From Fimbriimonadaceae bacterium (lineage in GTDB: Bacteria > Armatimonadota > UBA10988), in contig JADZEX010000020.1 in NCBI GenBank assembly GCA_020850355.1, positions 124,001-188,000 of the forward strand: a stretch of 64,000 bases of DNA, written 5' to 3'. A program made the position numbers and the translations under genes. The notes below the pieces were generated by a model. That model saw nothing but the letters and a program-made list of their open reading frames with translations. It was not told the DNA's origin and ran no database searches. Below, one piece after another: positions 15,219 to 30,110 of this stretch (position 1 is the first letter of the stretch; every line of letters begins with the position of its first letter).

Positions 15219-15337
15219 GCTGCCTCTCCCAACCCGGCTGGCCGGGTCACTCGCGGCTTCGCAGCGGGAGCCGCGGTCCCTGCCGCCGGTTGCAGGAGAA
15301 TCCGCTGCAGTGCCGAAGTGCTGACCGGAGGACGGTG

Positions 15338-18184
15338 GTGCTCGAGATCTGGCTGCTGCTGGCGACCACGGTGGGCGCGCTGGCGGCCGAGCCGTTCGCC
15401 GCGAGCTCGGTGCACGACTCGCGCTACTTGCCGGAGTACGCCGTCGACGGACGGCCGGACACCCGCTGGGCCAGCCTGGTCAACACCGGGCGACCGGAGC
15501 ACCTGACCATCGACTTCGGCCGCACCGTGTCGCTGGACCGCGTGACTCTCGTTTGGGAAGCCGCTTACGCGGTGGTCTACGAGCTGCAGGCGAGTGACGA
15601 CGGACAGACCTGGCGCACGCTACGGCGCATCACCGTCGGACGTGGCGGACGCGTCGAGCATACCGACCTGGTGGCCCGGGCGCGCTGGCTGCGCGTGCGC
15701 TGCGAGCAGACCGGGCCGCACGCCCTCTACTCGATCTGGGAACTGGAACTGCCGGCCGAGGCTGCCGCCGCGGTCCAGGCGCAGTTCGCCGGGCTGGCCG
15801 GTCTGCGCGCCGCCGCCGAGGCGGAGCGCCGGGCCGCGCTGCGACAACGCGCCAGCCAACTCGGCCTGGGCGAGGTCGTCTTCGCGGTGCGGCATCCCGG
15901 GCTCGACGGCCATTGGTACGCCAACTTCGGCTACTACGCTGCCGACTCGGCGCAGAAGTGCTACCGGCCGAACGGCGGGCGGTTGGCCGCGTATGACCCC
16001 CAGAGCGGCGCTGTGCGAACCATTTTGGACGTCCCCGACGGCAGCGTGCGCGACCCTCAGGTGCACTACGACGGGCGGACCATCCTCTTCAGCATGCTGC
16101 CGAGCGGTGGCTCGCACTATCATCTGTACGAGATCCAGGCCGACGGCAGCGGCTTGCGGCAGTTGACCGACGGCGACTGCGACGACCTCGAACCGAGCTA
16201 CCTGCCTGACGGCGACATCGTCTTCTGCAGCAGCCGCTGCAACCGCTGGGTGAACTGCTGGCTGACCCCCGTCGCCACGATCTACCGCTGCGACCGCGAC
16301 GGCGGCCACGTGCGGATGCTCTCGGCCAACGTCGAACACGACAACACCCCCTGGCCGCTGCCCGATGGCCGCATCCTCTACCAGCGCTGGGAGTACGTCG
16401 ATCGCAGTCAGGTCGATTACCACCACCTCTGGACCTTCAATCCTGATGGCACCCGGCAGATGGTCTACTTCGGCAACCTCCACCCGGGCATCGCGATGCT
16501 CGACGCCAAGCCCGTGCCGGGCACCGGGGAAGTCGTGACGGTTTTCTCACCCGGCCATGGCAAGCGGGAGCACGAGGGCCAGATCGCCCTGCTCGATCCG
16601 CGCGCCGGGCCGGATGAGCGGGGCATGGCGAAGGTCATCCCGACGGGCGACACCTTGCGCGACCCCTACCCGCTGGACCCCGCCAACTTCCTGGTCGCCG
16701 ACGGCAGCGCGCTGAAGTGGCTGGAGGTCGACGGCACGCTGACCACGGTCTACGAGCTGCCGGCCGGCGACGTCGACGCCGGGCGCTGGTTGCACGAGCC
16801 GCGGCCCCTGGCGCCACGCCACCGCGAAGCCGTGATCCCGCCGGCGGTCCAGCCGACCCGGCCGAGTGGCCGTCTGATCGTCTCAGCAGCGCATCTGGGC
16901 CGCAACATGGCGGGGGTGCAGCCGGGGCAGATCAAGTCGCTGCTGGTCATCGAAAGCCTGCCGAAGCCCATCAACTACACCGGCGGCATGGACCCCATCA
17001 GCTACGGCGGCACCTTCACCCTGGAGCGGCTGATCGGCACGGTGCCCGTCGAACCCGACGGCAGCGCCAACTTCGAGGTGCCGGCCCTGCGGAGTCTCTT
17101 CCTGGTTGCGCAAGACGCCGAGGGCAACGCCGTCAAGCGGATGCAGAGCTTCCTGACGGTGCAGCCGGGTGAGACGATGAGCTGCGTCGGCTGCCATGAG
17201 CCGCGCACCCAGACGCAGGCCCGTCGCGGCAGCCTGTTGGCGTTGCGGCGACCGCCGAGTCAGCCACAACCGCTGGCCGACCTGCCCGATGTCTTCGACT
17301 ACCCGCGCGACGTGCAGCCGATCCTCGATCGACACTGCCTGCCGTGCCACGGCTGCGAGCCCACCGCGGCCGGCGGGCCGGCCGCCGGGGGCGCCGTGCT
17401 GACCGGTGACCGCGGGCCGGTCTACTCGCACAGCTACTACACCTTGACCTGGCGGAACCAGATCGCCGACGGGCGCAACGAAGCCCGCGGCAACCGCGCG
17501 CCGTACGCCATCGGGGCGGCTGCCAGTCCGGTCTTTCAGAAGGTGCTGCAGCACCACCATGGCGTGCAGCTTAGCGATCACGAAGTGCGCACGCTGCGGT
17601 ACTGGCTGGAGAGCGGCGCCGCCTACCCGGGCACCTATGGGGCGCTGGGCGGCGGTAGCATCGGCGGCTACTACGCCAACAACCTCGTCGAGACCGACCT
17701 CAAGTGGCCGACCACCGTCGCCGGTGCCGAGGTCATCGAACGCCGTTGCAGCAGTTGCCACCGCGGGACGAAGGTCCTACCAACCGCCCTCAGCGACGAG
17801 CGCGACGTCAGCTTCTGGCGGCCCGACTGGCGGGACCCCCGGTTGGCCCTGGCGCGGCACCGCGTCTTCAACCTCAGCCGGCCGGCGCAGTCGCTGCTGC
17901 TGCTGGCCCCCTTGGCCAAGGCCGCTGGCGGCTGGGAGCGCTGCGGCACGATCTTCACCGACCCCTCCGACGCCGACTACCGCAAGCTGCTGGCGATGGT
18001 CGAGGCGGGACACCGGCGGCTGGGCGAGATCAAGCGCTTCGACATGCCTGGCTTCCGGCCGCCCGCGCCGTATCTGCGGGAGATGCAGCGCTATGGGGTG
18101 CTGGCCGCCCTGCCGCCGCCGGACCAGGCGGTCGACAGCTACGCGCTGGACCGCGCCTACTGGGGGTTGGCGCCGCGACCGTGA
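15338..18184 (+). CDS. Secreted discoidin / beta-propeller / three-haem c protein (HzsA-like)
   Basis: 948 residues from the GTG at 15338; GGAGG lies 6 bases upstream and a signal peptide follows (LEIWLLLATTVGALAAEP). Seen in order: an F5/8-type discoidin domain (about 20-140); a TolB/hydrazine-synthase-alpha-like beta-propeller (about 180-600) with repeats such as YEIQADGSGLRQLTDGDCDD; and three c-type haem sites, CVGCH (616-620), CLPCH (667-671) and CSSCH (804-808), within cytochrome-like segments. Proteins of this layout occur in Planctomycetes and relatives and are often called HzsA-related, but that does not imply hydrazine synthesis. A periplasmic redox or sugar-binding role is inferred. 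Its stop is 14 bases before the next gene. Confidence 0.85.
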   Translation: MLEIWLLLATTVGALAAEPFAASSVHDSRYLPEYAVDGRPDTRWASLVNTGRPEHLTIDFGRTVSLDRVTLVWEAAYAVVYELQASDDGQTWRTLRRITVGRGGRVEHTDLVARARWLRVRCEQTGPHALYSIWELELPAEAAAAVQAQFAGLAGLRAAAEAERRAALRQRASQLGLGEVVFAVRHPGLDGHWYANFGYYAADSAQKCYRPNGGRLAAYDPQSGAVRTILDVPDGSVRDPQVHYDGRTILFSMLPSGGSHYHLYEIQADGSGLRQLTDGDCDDLEPSYLPDGDIVFCSSRCNRWVNCWLTPVATIYRCDRDGGHVRMLSANVEHDNTPWPLPDGRILYQRWEYVDRSQVDYHHLWTFNPDGTRQMVYFGNLHPGIAMLDAKPVPGTGEVVTVFSPGHGKREHEGQIALLDPRAGPDERGMAKVIPTGDTLRDPYPLDPANFLVADGSALKWLEVDGTLTTVYELPAGDVDAGRWLHEPRPLAPRHREAVIPPAVQPTRPSGRLIVSAAHLGRNMAGVQPGQIKSLLVIESLPKPINYTGGMDPISYGGTFTLERLIGTVPVEPDGSANFEVPALRSLFLVAQDAEGNAVKRMQSFLTVQPGETMSCVGCHEPRTQTQARRGSLLALRRPPSQPQPLADLPDVFDYPRDVQPILDRHCLPCHGCEPTAAGGPAAGGAVLTGDRGPVYSHSYYTLTWRNQIADGRNEARGNRAPYAIGAAASPVFQKVLQHHHGVQLSDHEVRTLRYWLESGAAYPGTYGALGGGSIGGYYANNLVETDLKWPTTVAGAEVIERRCSSCHRGTKVLPTALSDERDVSFWRPDWRDPRLALARHRVFNLSRPAQSLLLLAPLAKAAGGWERCGTIFTDPSDADYRKLLAMVEAGHRRLGEIKRFDMPGFRPPAPYLREMQRYGVLAALPPPDQAVDSYALDRAYWGLAPRP

Positions 18185-22685: not shown

Positions 22686-23471
22686 TCAGCGCGTCGCCGG
22701 CGGGCTGTCCTGGAGCGACACCCGCAGCGCCAGGCGGCTCTCGTTGAGGGGGTCGAAGGTCGTCAGCTCGACGCCTTCGGCGGTCCGGGCGAGCTGCTGC
22801 GGTACCAGGCCCGGGCTGCCCGGGGCGGTCCAGGTCCGCCCACTGCGCGGATCGGTGACGGTCCAGGTCTGCGTCTGCGGGGTCAGCTCGAGCTGCACGC
22901 CGCGACTCCGGAGGCGGGCCAGGGCGGCGCCCTGGAAGGCGGTCTGGTAGTCGGCGACGTTGCCGAGCCTGACGCAGGTCAGCTCGTCGACCAGCACGTC
23001 GGTCGGCCCCGTGCCGATCACCCGCGGCTCGACGAAGGTCAGGCCGGCCGGCACCAGCAGTCGCGTGCGGAGCTGCACCCAGGCGGTGCGTGGCCCGCGG
23101 GCGGAGACGGCGCCGGCGGCCCACTGCACGCCGCTGTCGCCGGTCGGCGGCCAGAGGGTCGCACACAGCACGATCTCGCCGCTGTCGGCTGGCAGCACCC
23201 AGGCGGTCAGCTCGAAGAAGTCCCCGGCCACCGCCGGCAGGCGCGGGCCCGGGTTCAGCGACCAATCCTGCGCACCGCGATGCTGCACCCGCAGCGCCCG
23301 CTGCCCGCTGTGGGCGCGCTCCGCCAGGCTGACCGTCAGCTCGGCCGCACCAGCGCGGCACCAGCCGCGGGACCAGCCGCTGGGCCAACCGTCGGTCAGC
23401 TCCTCGCAACCACCGTTGGGTAGCAGGTTCGGCCCTGCCAACCAGAGGCTCAGCCAGAGCAGCGTGTTCAT
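22686..23471 (-). CDS. Secreted carbohydrate-binding-like protein, third gene of the DUF6785/FtsX operon
   Basis: 261 residues. A short signal peptide (MNTLLWLSLWLAGPNLLP) is followed by a jellyroll-like region starting NGGCEELTDGWPSGWSRGW, a pattern common at the front of secreted CBM-type beta-sandwiches (roughly 20-150). A second segment (about 175-255) with TWTVTDPRSGRTWTAPG resembles the N-terminal beta-domain of large glycoside hydrolases, yet the frame stops soon after. It may therefore be a truncated enzyme or a stand-alone binding protein. The ATG overlaps the FtsX-fusion stop (ATGA), so it is coupled. It ends 12 bases from a convergent gene. Confidence 0.6.
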   Translation of the reverse strand: MNTLLWLSLWLAGPNLLPNGGCEELTDGWPSGWSRGWCRAGAAELTVSLAERAHSGQRALRVQHRGAQDWSLNPGPRLPAVAGDFFELTAWVLPADSGEIVLCATLWPPTGDSGVQWAAGAVSARGPRTAWVQLRTRLLVPAGLTFVEPRVIGTGPTDVLVDELTCVRLGNVADYQTAFQGAALARLRSRGVQLELTPQTQTWTVTDPRSGRTWTAPGSPGLVPQQLARTAEGVELTTFDPLNESRLALRVSLQDSPPATR

Positions 23472-26400
23472 GCGGCAACCTCCCCGCGCAGGGCGGCTGC
23501 GCCGCGTTCGGCGTAGGCTGCCCGCTGCGGCGGCGCGACGGTGCGCCAGATCAGGAACTGCTGGCGCAGGATGTTGATGAACAGCCAGTTGGTCCGCCGC
23601 CACCCGTTGTCATCGCCGCTGATACGTTCGATGCCGATGTCGACGGCGTAGACCTGCGGGTCGTCGGGTTCAGGAATGGTCAGCAGCTCGACGCGTTGAC
23701 TGACTCCCAGATCGTACGGCGCCAGCCAGACCGTGAAGGCCAGCCGCAGGCCGCCGCCCGGGCGTGGCGCAAAGTCGGTGCGGTCGCAGTAGAAGTCGCC
23801 CCCGGCGAAGTCGACGTAGCTGTCGAAGTACTCGCGCAGGAAGGTGTTGCAGGCCAGGCCGTCGCGGCCGGTCAGCATGAACGGTAGCCGGAACCGCATC
23901 ACGTGGCCGTCGGGCACCGGCAACCGCCAGCGCCGCTCGACATCCGGGGTCGCCGCCCGGGCCGCCTTGCGGGCCGGGTAGAGCGAGCTCAGCAACACCG
24001 TGGCGATGATGATCGCCGCGACTCCGACGGTCGCCGTCGAGGAGTAGTTCAGGCTGATGCCCGCCAGCCCGCCCAGGTACTGCTGGCTGACCGCCCAGGT
24101 CACCAGCTTGGCGACCGCCTGACCCAGCAGGTAGCCCAGAATCACGCCCAGGTTGGCGAAGACGCAGCTCTCGGCCAAGAACAGCGTCGCGACATGGGCC
24201 GGCGCCAGGCCGATGCTGCTGAAGATGCCGATCTCGCGGAAGCGCTCCATGACCGCGCCGAGCATCGTGTTAAGCACGATCAGCGCGGCGATGATCAACG
24301 GGATCACGACCGTCGTCAGACCGCTGACTCCGGTGCTGCCGATGCTGCTGTAGAGCGCCACCCGCCCCTCGCCAGCTCCGTAGGCCGACAGCTCGAAGCG
24401 GTCCATCAGGGCCTTCGCCGCCGGATGCACCTGCCGCTCGTCGCCGAACCGAACGGCCACCGAACGGAGCGTTCCCCCGAGGGCCATCACGCGGTCGAAT
24501 GGCAGCAGGATCTGCGCCTCGGCCGCGTAGTGCGTGTAGCGGTCAATCGGCGGCGGTGCCACGCTGCCGAGCTTCAGCTTCTGGGCCTGCTGGTCGGTCA
24601 GCATCTTCAGCTTCTCGGGCTCCAGCTTGGAGAAGTCGACCGGCGTCAGCGGCTCGCCGTCGAGGTCGACCACCTGGTCCAGAGCGCTGTCTTCGAGCAC
24701 CCCGATCACCGCCAGCGAGCTCCCGAAGGCGGCCACCCGGCCGAACACCCCCGGCTCCCCGGTAGGCTGCAGCTTGAGCTTCGCGGCGACGCTGCTCGGC
24801 ACGATGCAGACGTTCTGCTCGCCCGGCCGGAACCAGCGCCCGGCACCCATCTGGCGGCCCAGGCCGCTGACCGCGGGCTCCTCGGCGGTGACGCCCAGGA
24901 TCGCGTTGATCACCAGCGGATCGCCCCCACCGGCGGCGTTGGCGATGTTCAGCTTGAGCTGCTTGTCGAGCTGCGAGCTGACCAGCCAGCAGCGCGCCGT
25001 AACCAGCCCCTGACGACCGAACTGGTTGCCCAGAATGCGCGCCGTCGGCTGCTCCAGGGCGCTCCAGACGGGGTCGCGGACCAACAGGCCGGGATAGACC
25101 ACTTGCGTCTGCACCGGCAACTCATTGCTGCGCAGGCCGGTCTTGACCGAGGTGAAGCTGAGCACCGTGAAGGTCAGCAGGATCAGCGTCACCGCGGTCA
25201 GCGCGGTGCGCAGCGGCCGGCGGCGCATGTTGCTGATACCCAGGGCAAACGCCGCGCCGAGCGTGCCGGCGCGACTCACATCGGCGGTGTGCTGCCCGCT
25301 GACCGCCTGCTGCAGCACCTGCAACTCTTCGTTGAAGCGCCGGCTGACGATGGCGATCACCAGCGTCGCCAGCGACATGATCACGAACCCGAGCAGAATG
25401 ATCCAGGGCGTGTCGAGCAGCCGGAAGGCCGGATGCACGGCGTTCAGGGCGCAGTAGACGACCACGAAGATGGCGATGGTCTTGAGGATCTGATCCTGAA
25501 TCCGCGGCGCTGCGAAGAGCAGCCGCTCGGCGAAGAAGGCGAACGGCAGCAGCAGCGCGAGGTAGAAGAGGACGCCCTTGATGGTGTCGGACTCGGTGCC
25601 ACGAACATCGGGATAGGCCCGCGCCTCGAACGCCCAGGCGGTGCGCGCTGCGGCCAGGTGCGCCGCCCAGTCGCGCGCCTGCAGCGCCGCGCTGGCGGTG
25701 TCGAGGTACTGCTTGGCCTTGCCGTGCAGATCGTCCAGCCGCAGGCTGCTGATGCCGAAGCCACGCTGCCGCTGCATTCGGAACTCGTCGACCCGCCACA
25801 TGTCGAGGGCCGCCTGGTAGGAGGTCCGCACCAGCCGCGGCGTCGCCGCCGGGTCGAAGCCCTCGCCCTCCGGCGTCTGCGGCGTGGCGTTGACCAGAAT
25901 CAGCCGCAGGCCCAGCAGGCCCATGCCCATCGTGACCTTAACCCGCATCGCCCGCGGCGCATAGACCACCGCCACCGGCTCGACGTAACTGGCTGACACG
26001 GTCCCGGTGATCTTGGCCGGCGGGCTGTGGACCGGCAACTCGTAGCCGAAGGTCCGCGGCTCGCTGTCGGTGCGGGCGTCGTAGATGTAGAGCTGCTGCA
26101 GAGTCTCGAAATAGCGCTCGTCGGTGAGGTCGAACAACGACAGCGGCTGGCACGGGAAGACGATCAGCGGCCGGCGCAGCCCGCTGCGGCCTTGGGTCAA
26201 CCGCGGGTACTTCAGCTCGCCCTCGGGGCCGAGGTCGGGCGCGTAGCTGATCTGCCCGGTCCCCGGCTCGATCCCATAGGCGTCGATCTTCAGCGTCGCG
26301 CTGTCCGGCTGGCCGACTAGCCGCCAGTCGCCGCGGGCGTCCGCCATCGTCAGGATGTCGGGCCGCACGCCCATCATGCTGACGGCGTCGTTCTTCAGCA

Positions 26401-28093
26401 CCACCAGCGCGTGCGGCACCGGGGTGTTTGGCAAGAACGTCTTCTTGCGCTCGAACTCGTAGATCATCCCGGCCAGCGGCTGGTACTTGTAGGGCAGCCG
26501 CTTGACCCGCCGCAGCCCGTCGCTGACCAGTCCGCGGTCGTCGGCCGCGGCGGCCAGGACCGCGCAGACGGCCTGCGTCTGGCGCAGCAGGTTGGCCTGG
26601 TTGAGGAACTCCGGCCGGTCGCTGGGGGTGTCGACCCGCGGCCGGGAGTCCTCGATGGTGAACAGCGTCACCGCCGGTCGGCCGGCCTGCACCAGCGGCT
26701 CGGCATCGCTGGCGAACTGGTCGGGGACCCAACTGTCCCAGGCCCGGTCCTGCGCCGGGTTGACGCAGTCGACTACCGCGCCAGGCAGCCCAGCGCTCCC
26801 TCCATAGCCGACGAAACGCTTGCCGAGCGGCGACAGGAAGCGCAGCAGGCTGTTGTCGCCGTAGAAGTGACCGGCGTGGAAGATGCCCAGGCGGTTGCTG
26901 CCGCTGGAAAGGTCCAGGGCGATGCTGAGGGTGTAGTCGAAGTTGGCGTAGAACTCGCTGGCGAGCTCCGCATCCTGCTGCGCGATGGCCTGCTGGACCG
27001 CCAGCTCCTGCCGCCAGATCGCCAACTCGGCGGCGGCGAGGCGCGGCTCGGCGGCCTGCTGGAGCTGCTGCAACTCGGTTACCAGCGCGCGGTTGGCGGC
27101 GTCGATCTGCGGCCAGGCCTGCGGCCAGCGGTCGCGGGGATGCTCGCGGCGCAGCACGTTGGCGAAGGCCCGCGCCCCGGCCAGGGCCTGGTGATGCGCG
27201 TCGAGCGCCACGAACAGCACCGTCCGCGCCGGCTGGTGCTCAAACAGCAGCCGCGCCGCCTCCAAGAGCGCCGCCAGGCCGCCAAGCTGCTCGGCGCCGG
27301 GGGCCGCTTCGAGCACCACCGAGCTGCTGTCGTAGTAGGCCGTGACGATCAGGCACTCCCGCCGCAGCGTCTCGTCGCGGCCGGGCAGGAACCCAAGGAT
27401 GTTGTTGCCTTCGACCATCCGCCAGTCGGCCGCCGCCTGGATCTGCCCGCGGCCGAGCTCCCGGCCGCGCGGACCGTTCGCCAGCAGCGCGGCGGCGACG
27501 GCTTGCGACAACCAGAAGCGCGGCACGTCGACCGGGGTGTTGAGCACCTTGGTGCTCAACTCGCCACGCCCGGCATGGGCCGTCTCGACGAAGACCACCG
27601 CGCCCGCGCCGAGCAAGGCGGCATCCAGCCAGCGCTGCCCGCAGTCGGCCGCGACCAGCACAATCGCGCCGTCGAGGTTGCGCCCGCGGTACCGCCCCAG
27701 GTCGCCGTCGACCGCGTCGACCACCGGTCCCGCCAGCCCGCCGACCGGCAGCGCGCTGAGCCGTACCAGATTCGGGGCGAGGGTCCCCAGCGGCAGCCGC
27801 TGCCCGGCGAGGGTCAGCCAGGCGCCCTGGCTCTGCGGCACCGGCAGCAGGAAGCGCTGTCGCACGACGCTCTGCAGGCCGAGTTCGCGGAACCGCGCTT
27901 CGATCATCGCGGCGGCGCCCTGACCGCCGGAGGCGCCCGGCGCGCGGGGCGCAATGTTGCAGAAGCGCTGCTGGTACTCGCGCAGCAGCGTCGGCGAGAC
28001 GCCCGCGGCGACTTCCGCCGGCCCCGCCGCCAGCGGCGCCAGAGCCAGCAGCAGCGCCGTCAGCGCCAGGCGGCTAGCCGAACCAGATGCCAT
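23468..28093 (-). CDS. Giant fusion of a degenerate M28 peptidase domain and an FtsX/MacB-type permease
   Basis: 1541 residues from the ATG at 28093 (GGAG upstream, signal peptide ASGSASRLALTALLLALAPL). Residues about 30-480 have the M28 aminopeptidase outline, but the metal site is lost: the HYD histidine is Tyr253 (YYDSSS), the bridging Asp is Gln269, and the Glu-Glu pair is His300-His301 (ALDAHHQALAG). A beta-rich region follows (500-830), then an FtsX-like permease with about eight membrane helices, including RRPLRTALTAVTLILLTF and a C-terminal LIVLNTMLGAVMERFREIGI segment, and a soluble tail. FtsX permeases usually pair with a MacB/LolD-type ATPase; none is adjacent. It overlaps both neighbours in its operon. 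The architecture is clear, the function unknown. Confidence 0.85.
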   Translation of the reverse strand: MASGSASRLALTALLLALAPLAAGPAEVAAGVSPTLLREYQQRFCNIAPRAPGASGGQGAAAMIEARFRELGLQSVVRQRFLLPVPQSQGAWLTLAGQRLPLGTLAPNLVRLSALPVGGLAGPVVDAVDGDLGRYRGRNLDGAIVLVAADCGQRWLDAALLGAGAVVFVETAHAGRGELSTKVLNTPVDVPRFWLSQAVAAALLANGPRGRELGRGQIQAAADWRMVEGNNILGFLPGRDETLRRECLIVTAYYDSSSVVLEAAPGAEQLGGLAALLEAARLLFEHQPARTVLFVALDAHHQALAGARAFANVLRREHPRDRWPQAWPQIDAANRALVTELQQLQQAAEPRLAAAELAIWRQELAVQQAIAQQDAELASEFYANFDYTLSIALDLSSGSNRLGIFHAGHFYGDNSLLRFLSPLGKRFVGYGGSAGLPGAVVDCVNPAQDRAWDSWVPDQFASDAEPLVQAGRPAVTLFTIEDSRPRVDTPSDRPEFLNQANLLRQTQAVCAVLAAAADDRGLVSDGLRRVKRLPYKYQPLAGMIYEFERKKTFLPNTPVPHALVVLKNDAVSMMGVRPDILTMADARGDWRLVGQPDSATLKIDAYGIEPGTGQISYAPDLGPEGELKYPRLTQGRSGLRRPLIVFPCQPLSLFDLTDERYFETLQQLYIYDARTDSEPRTFGYELPVHSPPAKITGTVSASYVEPVAVVYAPRAMRVKVTMGMGLLGLRLILVNATPQTPEGEGFDPAATPRLVRTSYQAALDMWRVDEFRMQRQRGFGISSLRLDDLHGKAKQYLDTASAALQARDWAAHLAAARTAWAFEARAYPDVRGTESDTIKGVLFYLALLLPFAFFAERLLFAAPRIQDQILKTIAIFVVVYCALNAVHPAFRLLDTPWIILLGFVIMSLATLVIAIVSRRFNEELQVLQQAVSGQHTADVSRAGTLGAAFALGISNMRRRPLRTALTAVTLILLTFTVLSFTSVKTGLRSNELPVQTQVVYPGLLVRDPVWSALEQPTARILGNQFGRQGLVTARCWLVSSQLDKQLKLNIANAAGGGDPLVINAILGVTAEEPAVSGLGRQMGAGRWFRPGEQNVCIVPSSVAAKLKLQPTGEPGVFGRVAAFGSSLAVIGVLEDSALDQVVDLDGEPLTPVDFSKLEPEKLKMLTDQQAQKLKLGSVAPPPIDRYTHYAAEAQILLPFDRVMALGGTLRSVAVRFGDERQVHPAAKALMDRFELSAYGAGEGRVALYSSIGSTGVSGLTTVVIPLIIAALIVLNTMLGAVMERFREIGIFSSIGLAPAHVATLFLAESCVFANLGVILGYLLGQAVAKLVTWAVSQQYLGGLAGISLNYSSTATVGVAAIIIATVLLSSLYPARKAARAATPDVERRWRLPVPDGHVMRFRLPFMLTGRDGLACNTFLREYFDSYVDFAGGDFYCDRTDFAPRPGGGLRLAFTVWLAPYDLGVSQRVELLTIPEPDDPQVYAVDIGIERISGDDNGWRRTNWLFINILRQQFLIWRTVAPPQRAAYAERGAAALRGEVAA

Positions 28094-30047
28094 ACTTCTC
28101 CGCCAGCTCTTCATTGAAGACCGCCACCGTGCCCCAGAGCACCCCGGCCGTGAAGAAGTGCCCCAGCACAATCCCCACGAACAGCGGGATCAACTGCTTG
28201 TAGAGCCGCACCCCACCGACCCGCAGGATGCCGCTCTTGACGATCCAGACCAGCAGCGAGGGTCCCCACATGTGGGGATGCGCCAAGGTCATCGCGAAGC
28301 CCAGCGGGTGGAGCGGGAACCGCAGGAAGGCCGCTCGCAGGACCACCAGCCCGCCGGTGATCAGGAACCCGGTGAAGAGCGCCAGGTTGCGCCGCAGGTC
28401 CGGCGCCAGGGGGCTCTTGATCCACGTCGCGATATCGGTCTGCGCGTCGCGCATCAGCTTGATGCGGTAGCCGCCGTCGGTGGTGCCGCGCTCCAGGACG
28501 TTGCCGCCGTACTGGTAAAAGGTGTCGAGATGCGACCAGGCGGCCAGCCCGAAGCCGATCACCGCCGCCAGCAGCAGCGCCCAGACCAGGTCGCGCCGCC
28601 GGGCGTGGACCTCGTCACCCAGCCGCAAGGCCTCGATCTGGCTGCCCGCGGTGGTCGGGTAGAAGCCGCGCGCCAGCCAGGCGAAGCCATGCAAGATGGC
28701 CAGCGACTGGAAGTTCTCGCCCGGCGCCAGCCGCGCGGAGCCGAACAGGTTGGTGAGGCACTTCTGCTGCTCCCAGTACGGGAACAGCCAGACCATCGGC
28801 GCCCCGGTCTCGGCGCGGATCCGGGTGTAGGTCAGCGCCACCCCGAGGATCAGGCCGAAGTAGAGCAGCGCCAGCCAGAGCGCCATGCCCGCCAGGACCG
28901 CCCAGCCGAGGATGAACGCCAGGCAGACCACCAGCCCGGCGAAGGCCGCCCGGTAGCTCACGGCTTCACCCGCATCGAGACCCGGGTCACCGCGCCCTAC
29001 CACGCGCTGCAGCGCGGCCCAGAGATGCCGTCGGCCGACCCAGACGACGAACAGCGTCAGTGCCAGGTAGCCGCCCATGCAGAGTTCGCGGTCGAACGGG
29101 AAGCCCGGAATGCGGTCGGCCGCGCCGGTCATCGTGGCCAGCACCTTGCTCAGCCGGACCAACAGATAGAAGACCCAACAGGAGAGCGTGATCTCGGTCG
29201 ACATGAGGTAGCCGAGGCCGAAGATCTCCGGTCGCCAGGCGATGTTCAGGTCGGACAGTGCGCTCCAGGGGCGTTCGGTGAACAGTCCGCCGACCTGAAA
29301 CCCGACCCCGGGCGCGGGGACCGCCGGGTTCACAGCGTGCAGCATGTTGAGCAGATTGTAGATGAACGAGACGCCGATACCGACCCAGAACAGCGGGTTC
29401 CGCAGCACCGTGGCGAGGCCGCGCTGGTTGTCCGGGGTGAGCGTCAGGACGAACTGCACCAGCGGGAAGCTGAGCCGCTCGCGCTCGGTCCACTGTTTGC
29501 GCAACAGCAGGTTGAGGCACAGCATCGCGCCGAAGATGGCCAGGGCGAAAAGGCCCCACAGCAGCATCGGCTGCAGCCAGACGCCCCAGGGCACGGCCTC
29601 GCCCGCGGCGCCTTCGTAGAGTTCTCGAATCACCTCGGGGTCGCGCGGGCCGTACCAGCTCGGAATCAGCTCCCAGATCTGCGCCAGGCCGTTCTCGGGA
29701 GTCGCGAAGTACTGCGCGACGTTGGTGGCCGGCAGCATCATCCGCATCATGCCGACCGAGCTGAAGGTCGGCGCCACCGACATCACCACGAAGATCACCA
29801 CCAGCTCGGCGCGGCGGAGCGCCAGGCGGGGGTGCAAGCGGGTCAGCAGCGGATTGAGCAGCAGGAACAGCGCCAGCGCGGCGACCGCCGGGACGACCGG
29901 GACGGCCTCGCTGATCTGCGTGGTGTGGCTGATCATCTCGACCCGGCGAATCCAGAGCGTGGCCCCAAACGCCAGGGCCAACGCCAGCACGAGCGAGCGG
30001 AGCGTCAGTCCGCGCTCCAGGGGAGCCGGTCGATCGGGCGGTTCCAC
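28074..30047 (-). CDS. DUF6785/DUF6784 multi-pass membrane protein (OPT-transporter-like)
   Basis: 657 residues from the GTG at 30047; GGAGG lies 8 bases upstream. About 14 membrane helices fill the chain. Recognised features are LRSLVLALALAFGATLW at the start, SYRAAFAGLVVCLAFILGWA in the middle and a C-terminal LAHPHMWGPSLLVWIVKSG, as I recall for DUF6785/DUF6784 proteins of Planctomycetes, Armatimonadota and relatives. These look distantly like oligopeptide (OPT) transporters, but no substrate is known. Its end overlaps the FtsX-fusion start by 20 bases, and it is the first gene behind a strong promoter. I infer a transport or export role shared with the next two genes. Confidence 0.82.
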   Translation of the reverse strand: MEPPDRPAPLERGLTLRSLVLALALAFGATLWIRRVEMISHTTQISEAVPVVPAVAALALFLLLNPLLTRLHPRLALRRAELVVIFVVMSVAPTFSSVGMMRMMLPATNVAQYFATPENGLAQIWELIPSWYGPRDPEVIRELYEGAAGEAVPWGVWLQPMLLWGLFALAIFGAMLCLNLLLRKQWTERERLSFPLVQFVLTLTPDNQRGLATVLRNPLFWVGIGVSFIYNLLNMLHAVNPAVPAPGVGFQVGGLFTERPWSALSDLNIAWRPEIFGLGYLMSTEITLSCWVFYLLVRLSKVLATMTGAADRIPGFPFDRELCMGGYLALTLFVVWVGRRHLWAALQRVVGRGDPGLDAGEAVSYRAAFAGLVVCLAFILGWAVLAGMALWLALLYFGLILGVALTYTRIRAETGAPMVWLFPYWEQQKCLTNLFGSARLAPGENFQSLAILHGFAWLARGFYPTTAGSQIEALRLGDEVHARRRDLVWALLLAAVIGFGLAAWSHLDTFYQYGGNVLERGTTDGGYRIKLMRDAQTDIATWIKSPLAPDLRRNLALFTGFLITGGLVVLRAAFLRFPLHPLGFAMTLAHPHMWGPSLLVWIVKSGILRVGGVRLYKQLIPLFVGIVLGHFFTAGVLWGTVAVFNEELAEKYGIWFG

Positions 30048-30081
30048 GCGCCACACCTCCACGCTGTTGCAGCCCGCCCGG

Positions 30082-30110
30082 ACATTACCGCAGCGCGATC
30101 CGCGCGTCAA
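30082..30110 (-). promoter_or_regulatory. Promoter of the DUF6785 / degenerate M28-FtsX / binding-protein operon
   Basis: On the minus strand, TTGACG (30110-30105) and TAATGT (30087-30082) are separated by 17 bases. The start near 30075 leaves a leader of about 28 bases that contains GGAGG before the GTG at 30047. No other promoter is seen for the two downstream genes. Confidence 0.65.

Follow-up and report, generated by a model that had tools for sequence, protein, structure and literature searches.

The window analysed here, a stretch of 64,000 nucleotides from a member of the Armatimonadota, carries three genes on its minus strand: gene A (28074-30047), which encodes a polytopic protein of 657 aa with DUF6785 and DUF6784 domains; gene B (23468-28093), a giant M28-FtsX permease of 1541 aa and of the type that we call B1; and gene C (22686-23471), a putatively secreted protein of 261 aa. 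The first-pass annotation correctly described the three genes as overlapping on one strand, by exactly 20 bases between A and B and exactly 4 bases between B and C. Gene A starts at a GTG at position 30047, preceded by GGAGG, position 30110 being only the start of the mechanically called open reading frame. The promoter that had been read upstream (TTGACG-17-TAATGT, minus strand, 30082-30110) was not borne out: it agrees with the consensus at 5/6 and 3/6 positions (8/12), and a scan for sigma-70-like sites reports none, shuffled sequences giving 0.2. A further gene of the window, on the plus strand (15290-18184), encodes a protein of 964 aa that has haem-type CxxCH motifs close to its C-terminus and, by eye, WD40-like repeats.

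Gene B matches Peptidase_M28 (Pfam, E 4.2e-10, 40.1 bits, cut-off 21.3) and, over residues 1263-1379, FtsX (PF02687, E 5.3e-12, 46.3 bits, cut-off 25.5). Its extracytoplasmic region begins with a PA plus M28 fold (residues 27-530; 26504-28015, minus strand), followed by a conserved beta-rich and then helical domain of unknown fold family (residues 531-836; 25586-26503, minus strand). An AlphaFold2 model of residues 27-836 reached a pLDDT of 93.8, and Foldseek matched this ectodomain to 2ek8, an M28 aminopeptidase with a PA domain (E 7.2e-23). In the membrane portion (residues ~838-1380; 23954-25582, minus strand), three extra N-terminal membrane segments, recognized by eye, precede a MacB/FtsX-type permease core; profile searches assign this half to the MacB/LolF/YtrF type, and a homologue of B (L065) has a Pfam match to MacB_PCD. 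The C-terminal domain (residues 1385-1541; 23471-23941, minus strand), highly conserved in the alignment and marked by the motif WLAPYDLGVSQ, is probably cytoplasmic, as judged from an inferred topology. A second B gene lies in the same genome, 60 kb from the first.

The M28 part of B had been described as degenerate, which is misleading, because the altered site is nearly invariant among 91 diverse homologues. Specifically, D255, H300, R484 and D492 are kept in 91/91, whereas position 268 varies slightly (76 E and 12 D of 91); D255, E268 and H300 form the core of the re-specified site (27194-27331, minus strand). D394 presumably stands at the place of Asp179 (88 D, 3 E) and D488 at that of His256 (87/91), placements that we base on knowledge of the motifs; E465 was rejected as the replacement of His256 because alignment of the YHTPxD motif points to D488. 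In the numbering of the Aeromonas aminopeptidase, His97 has become Tyr or Phe, the catalytic Glu151 is His300 (91/91), Glu152 is mostly Phe (F/H) and His256 is Asp488, so that neither the dizinc ligand set nor the catalytic Glu of M28 enzymes is retained, D179 being kept and D117 likely being represented by E/D. H300 aligns with the His at the mutated position of 2anp, which we take to be the E151H mutant of the Aeromonas enzyme. The site is a fixed alternative one and not a product of decay. The M28 domain of window-type B also contains a helical hairpin insertion (26939-27127; residues ~323-385) that is short or replaced elsewhere, with hydrophobic inserts in L047 and L087.

Gene A is a DUF6785 membrane protein, as first annotated (Pfam E 1.4e-131, together with DUF6784); our search for literature on DUF6785 returned nothing. 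An AlphaFold2 model built with 50 relatives had a pLDDT of 91.5 and a pTM of 0.92, and a Foldseek search of the PDB returned barley YS1 at full length (7wst, E 2.3e-8, prob 1.00, TM 0.66/0.71 over 679 columns), the YS1 entries 7wst and 7wsr being the only ones below E 0.001 and the next match having an E of 0.075. Gene A is therefore predicted to have the OPT/Yellow-Stripe fold. The Pfam OPT model (PF03169) gave no match at E <= 1 to gene A and its 50 relatives, and PDB profile searches with gene A and with c2, a polytopic protein of ~670 aa encoded downstream of most B genes, found nothing. Naming c2 from Pfam failed at first, the initial scan being without a match; with divergent members included, c2 proteins scored against Pfam OPT at E 8.7e-6, 1.5e-5 and 2.7e-5, all below threshold (scores of 25.1 and 23.5 bits, gathering cut-off 25.8), the 1.5e-5 being the best value of a separate set. 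Over 453-602 columns, hhalign scored A and c2 at 92% in local and 96% in global mode, against 0.2-1.6% for reversed, block-shuffled and unrelated polytopic controls. We place A and c2 as distant homologues within one OPT-like superfamily, since three independent lines converge: the structure match of A, the near-threshold OPT scores of c2 and the A-c2 alignment. This makes them relatives of carriers that move oligopeptides or iron chelates in plants and fungi. YS1 itself carries iron-phytosiderophore by a proton-coupled elevator mechanism (PMC9691689).

DUF6785 is an expanded family, with 23 genes in the window's genome and, in relatives, 1 to at least 20 scored copies and up to 48 first-look candidates. 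A constant partner was sought for the other 22 copies of the window's genome, and none emerged among their mixed neighbours. The closest in-genome paralogue of gene A (48% identity; L146, G000:C15:105607-107106) adjoins a phosphoesterase-like gene and not B, and a separate M28-family protein with an AHKDS-type HxD motif is encoded directly upstream of another DUF6785 gene (L131:2798-3880, G000:C15).

A search of 61 Armatimonadota genomes found B in 53 of them. A search of named records placed B in the Armatimonadota (Zipacnadia and others) and showed relatives of B in records labelled Latescibacterota, Gemmatimonadota (some of which may be Latescibacterota), Omnitrophota and TA06, with 529 stretches confirmed; the genomes compared are mostly metagenome-assembled. 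An all-against-all comparison of the open reading frames of the 53 Armatimonadota loci, the second B locus and the window brought out a usual series, in which B is followed by c2, often then by c4 (~330 aa), a PqqD-like protein, a short FtsX permease (c7) and a LolD/MacB-type ATPase (c6). The full series is present in 23 of 91 non-redundant B loci. Where there was room to see the neighbour, c2 lies directly downstream of B in 62/80 non-redundant loci and DUF6785 directly upstream in 21/77. Profile searches of 80 named loci showed that other phyla keep this order. There the gene directly upstream of B is often DUF6785, an adjacency that recurs in at least two phyla, and at one locus (L215) all seven genes stand in a row. 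The order varies nonetheless, as the short FtsX and ATPase genes precede B in L048, L049 and L054. A tandem DUF6785 pair lies directly upstream of B in two stretches (L177:4804-9889 and L165:5800-9889), and in three loci of one family (L058, L075 and L077) two small genes separate B from c2, their products named by eye as a membrane protein of GYF-like type and a CPTCGMTR protein resembling DUF2752. Two tandem M16-like (PqqF/pitrilysin-like) peptidase genes are found upstream of B in L051, L062, L076, L078 and L176. The RiPP system suggested by PqqD was discarded: among open reading frames of at least 90 aa, no conserved modifying enzyme or precursor follows the ATPase.

The window has neither c2 nor the short FtsX permease nor the ATPase. 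In its genome, c2 is found at G000:C12:29039-30937, and a PqqD-FtsX-ATPase module, with the single-copy c6 ATPase, at G000:C89:2665-4938. Because these essential partners lie outside the window, the trio is not the system; the idea of a complete three-gene unit was abandoned in favour of a conserved system of which the trio is a rearranged and incomplete part. Gene C is not part of the conserved core, being next to B in the window's genome and in G002 only, both of one family. It is real, as a homologue follows B at the same place in a related genome (L041), and we regard it as a binding protein of local, accessory role. Its Pfam search gave no match. Of the earlier description of C as a secreted beta-sandwich-like protein, the first half is probable from a signal-like N-terminus recognized by eye, and the second was not confirmed, a CBM_4_9 match of a relative at E 0.009, below the cut-off, being the only hint of such a fold.

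Genes A and B are not only neighbours. Across 291 Armatimonadota genomes, 195 have both DUF6785 and B, 84 have neither, 1 has B only and 11 have DUF6785 only, mostly incomplete genomes, which makes 12 discordant ones (Fisher p 1e-59, in a test that ignores phylogeny). Presence varies within families and even within one genus (g16), which indicates repeated gains or losses. Within the set of 61, c2 is found in 52/53 genomes with B and 0/8 without, and the dedicated ATPase in exactly one copy in 51/53 and 0/8, respectively; the gaps (c2 in G060, the ATPase in G051 and G058) fall in genomes that are 61-86% complete. G052 retains all of them unlinked: one contig carries B and DUF6785 at separate places, and two further contigs carry c2 and the ATPase. 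Copies of c2 equal those of B, as found by reading two match lists side by side (2/2 in G000, G002, G013 and G027, 3/3 in G004 and G040, and 1/1 in most other genomes). The unlinked c2 genes of genomes with window-type B form one clade whose order follows the B tree, the B1 and c2 distances correlate at 0.90 (8 of 40320 permutations), a value to which species relatedness contributes, and in L163 a window-type B is still linked to c2. Of the co-occurrence expected for the trio, the part that concerns A and B thus stands: far from being rarely adjacent, they are side by side in many lineages and are co-inherited when unlinked, and a functional link between them is strongly supported. The part that concerns C does not.

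Taken together, the results show a type VII ABC machine, of the MacB/LolCDE/FtsEX type, whose large permease is B with its M28-derived ectodomain; the machine's other parts are the single-copy LolD-like ATPase c6, the short FtsX permease c7, c2, the PqqD-like protein and c4; and DUF6785, a protein of predicted OPT fold, is tied to this machine. We hold this anatomy with high confidence. Its mechanism is a more tentative matter. The reading that we favour, at somewhat below an even chance, is that the machine is a capture device for peptide-like or metal-chelate ligands and acts together with transporters of OPT fold. Under this reading, c6, c7 and B would form a heterodimeric ABC assembly whose own core carries no substrate and which passes ATP-driven motion to the M28-like domain of B; this domain, no longer a canonical dizinc aminopeptidase, would capture a peptide-like ligand or a peptide/chelate complex and hand it to OPT-fold partners, or gate its passage through them. 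c2 would be the constant partner and the DUF6785 paralogues (23 in the window's genome) the variable, substrate-specific ones, and the window operon would make one specialized pair (A and B1), with c2 and the shared PqqD-FtsX-ATPase module supplied from elsewhere. The guess at the ligand comes from the M28, OPT and PqqD families all being peptide-related, and it agrees with the pairs of M16-like peptidase genes that precede B in some genomes. The first-pass annotation had proposed an envelope export or mechanotransmission complex; a mechanotransmission-type ABC with an extracytoplasmic binding domain is indeed the best class for B, whereas export alone is disfavoured, since A as an OPT-fold transporter would point to the uptake or handling of small ligands. 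Several points weigh against capture and transfer: import is not the usual task of type VII ABC systems, most of which export or perform mechanical work; the majority of DUF6785 copies lie away from B, among mixed neighbours; and a common lifestyle could explain the co-inheritance. Moreover, HvYS1 shows that a protein of OPT fold may need no ABC partner to be a complete, proton-driven transporter (PMC9691689). An ATP-energized OPT system is possible, if doubtful; in it, the type VII ABC engine, with its re-specified M28 capture domain, would itself drive OPT-fold transporters or gate them, and a single ATPase would be shared by as many c2 proteins as there are copies of B and by numerous DUF6785 paralogues.

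The numerical imbalance between one ATPase, 1-4 copies of B and 1 to 23+ copies of DUF6785, and their joint loss even when unlinked, would also suit a hub for the biogenesis or quality control of membrane proteins of OPT fold, in which the inactive M28 domain would grip extracytoplasmic parts of c2 or DUF6785 while ATP-driven motion helps to insert, assemble or extract them. Such a hub would be loosely nicalin-like: the M28-fold matches of B include nicalin, itself an inactive M28 fold, which in the endoplasmic reticulum belongs to a translocon that handles multipass proteins (PMC7505659). We nevertheless think it unlikely, as c2 scales 1:1 with B in the manner of a subunit, not of a client, and other OPT relatives (HvYS1) do without one. 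In an export machine, B, the short FtsX permease and the ATPase would send out a lipoprotein, a peptide or a metallophore, with proteins of OPT fold as re-importers or accessories. The ATPase and the short permease are closest to LolD, MacB, YbbA and LolCE models, and a member of the peptide-binding PqqD family is encoded in the cluster; yet B, the ATPase and the short permease all stay far below the NCBIfam equivalog cut-offs for LolCDE, MacB and FtsEX, and neither a conserved RiPP enzyme nor a precursor was found after the ATPase among open reading frames of at least 90 aa. OPT-fold proteins are, to our knowledge, importers wherever their role is known, and we rate export no higher than the hub. 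That the site is a re-specified mononuclear or metal-free hydrolase, trimming peptides before OPT-type uptake, is improbable. In its favour, D255, E268, H300, D394, D488 and D492 are near-invariant, the plan is comparable to the type VII ABC plus hydrolase of YbbAP-TesA (PMC12646458), and a functional E151H mutant of the Aeromonas aminopeptidase (2anp) is on record, going by a title cited in PMC4320195, but three of the five metal-ligand positions have changed type (His97 to Tyr/Phe, Glu152 mostly to Phe, His256 to Asp). An accidental operon of functionally unrelated neighbours, to which the lineage-specific gene C and the lack of c2 and the ATPase in the window might point, is very improbable, being contradicted for A and B by their adjacency in at least two phyla and the co-inheritance of unlinked genes; for C it may still hold.

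These results give DUF6785/DUF6784, an expanded membrane family of unknown function, a predicted fold and a partner, describe an M28 active site apparently fixed in a different state, and define a multi-gene machine common to Armatimonadota and to genomes labelled Latescibacterota/Gemmatimonadota, further lineages having B and c2. If the ABC engine does energize OPT-fold carriers, this would be a modular ABC/secondary-carrier hybrid, ECF-like in plan and built of unrelated parts. The system described here would add a new class of partner to type VII ABC machines, and defined gene sets would make uptake and transport in these largely uncultured phyla testable.

Among known systems, YbbAP-TesA of Escherichia coli (PMC12646458) likewise joins a type VII ABC permease and a YbbA/LolD-type ATPase to an extracytoplasmic partner of hydrolase fold; here, by contrast, the hydrolase-fold part is an M28 domain that belongs to the permease chain itself and has an altered catalytic site, and the set also includes an OPT-like partner and a PqqD-like protein. 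LolCDE, MacB and FtsEX share the FtsX-type permease domain and the LolD/MacB-like ATPase, whereas the present machine has a giant 800-residue M28-containing ectodomain and an obligate OPT-like partner, and its B, c6 and c7 miss the curated cut-offs of known type VII families despite the FtsX domain and the cognate ATPase. OPT/YSL transporters such as barley YS1 (7wst) resemble gene A over the full length of the predicted fold and c2 in near-threshold sequence scores, but gene A has no OPT sequence match and is tied to an ABC machine. With the M28 aminopeptidases (2ek8, BSAP and the Aeromonas enzyme), B shares the PA plus M28 fold, the Asp of HxD, the Asp179 position and the TPxD motif, although its metal ligands and general base are replaced by another conserved set. 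Nicalin and the transferrin receptor, matched by profile and/or structure search, also carry an M28 fold without peptidase function, but they are eukaryotic and have no ABC permease. ECF transporters offer an analogy only, that of one single-copy energizing module serving many multi-copy membrane proteins, neither the permeases nor the S components being related in sequence. The system differs from LolCDE, MacB, FtsEX and YbbAP-TesA alike and is an undescribed bacterial membrane machine.
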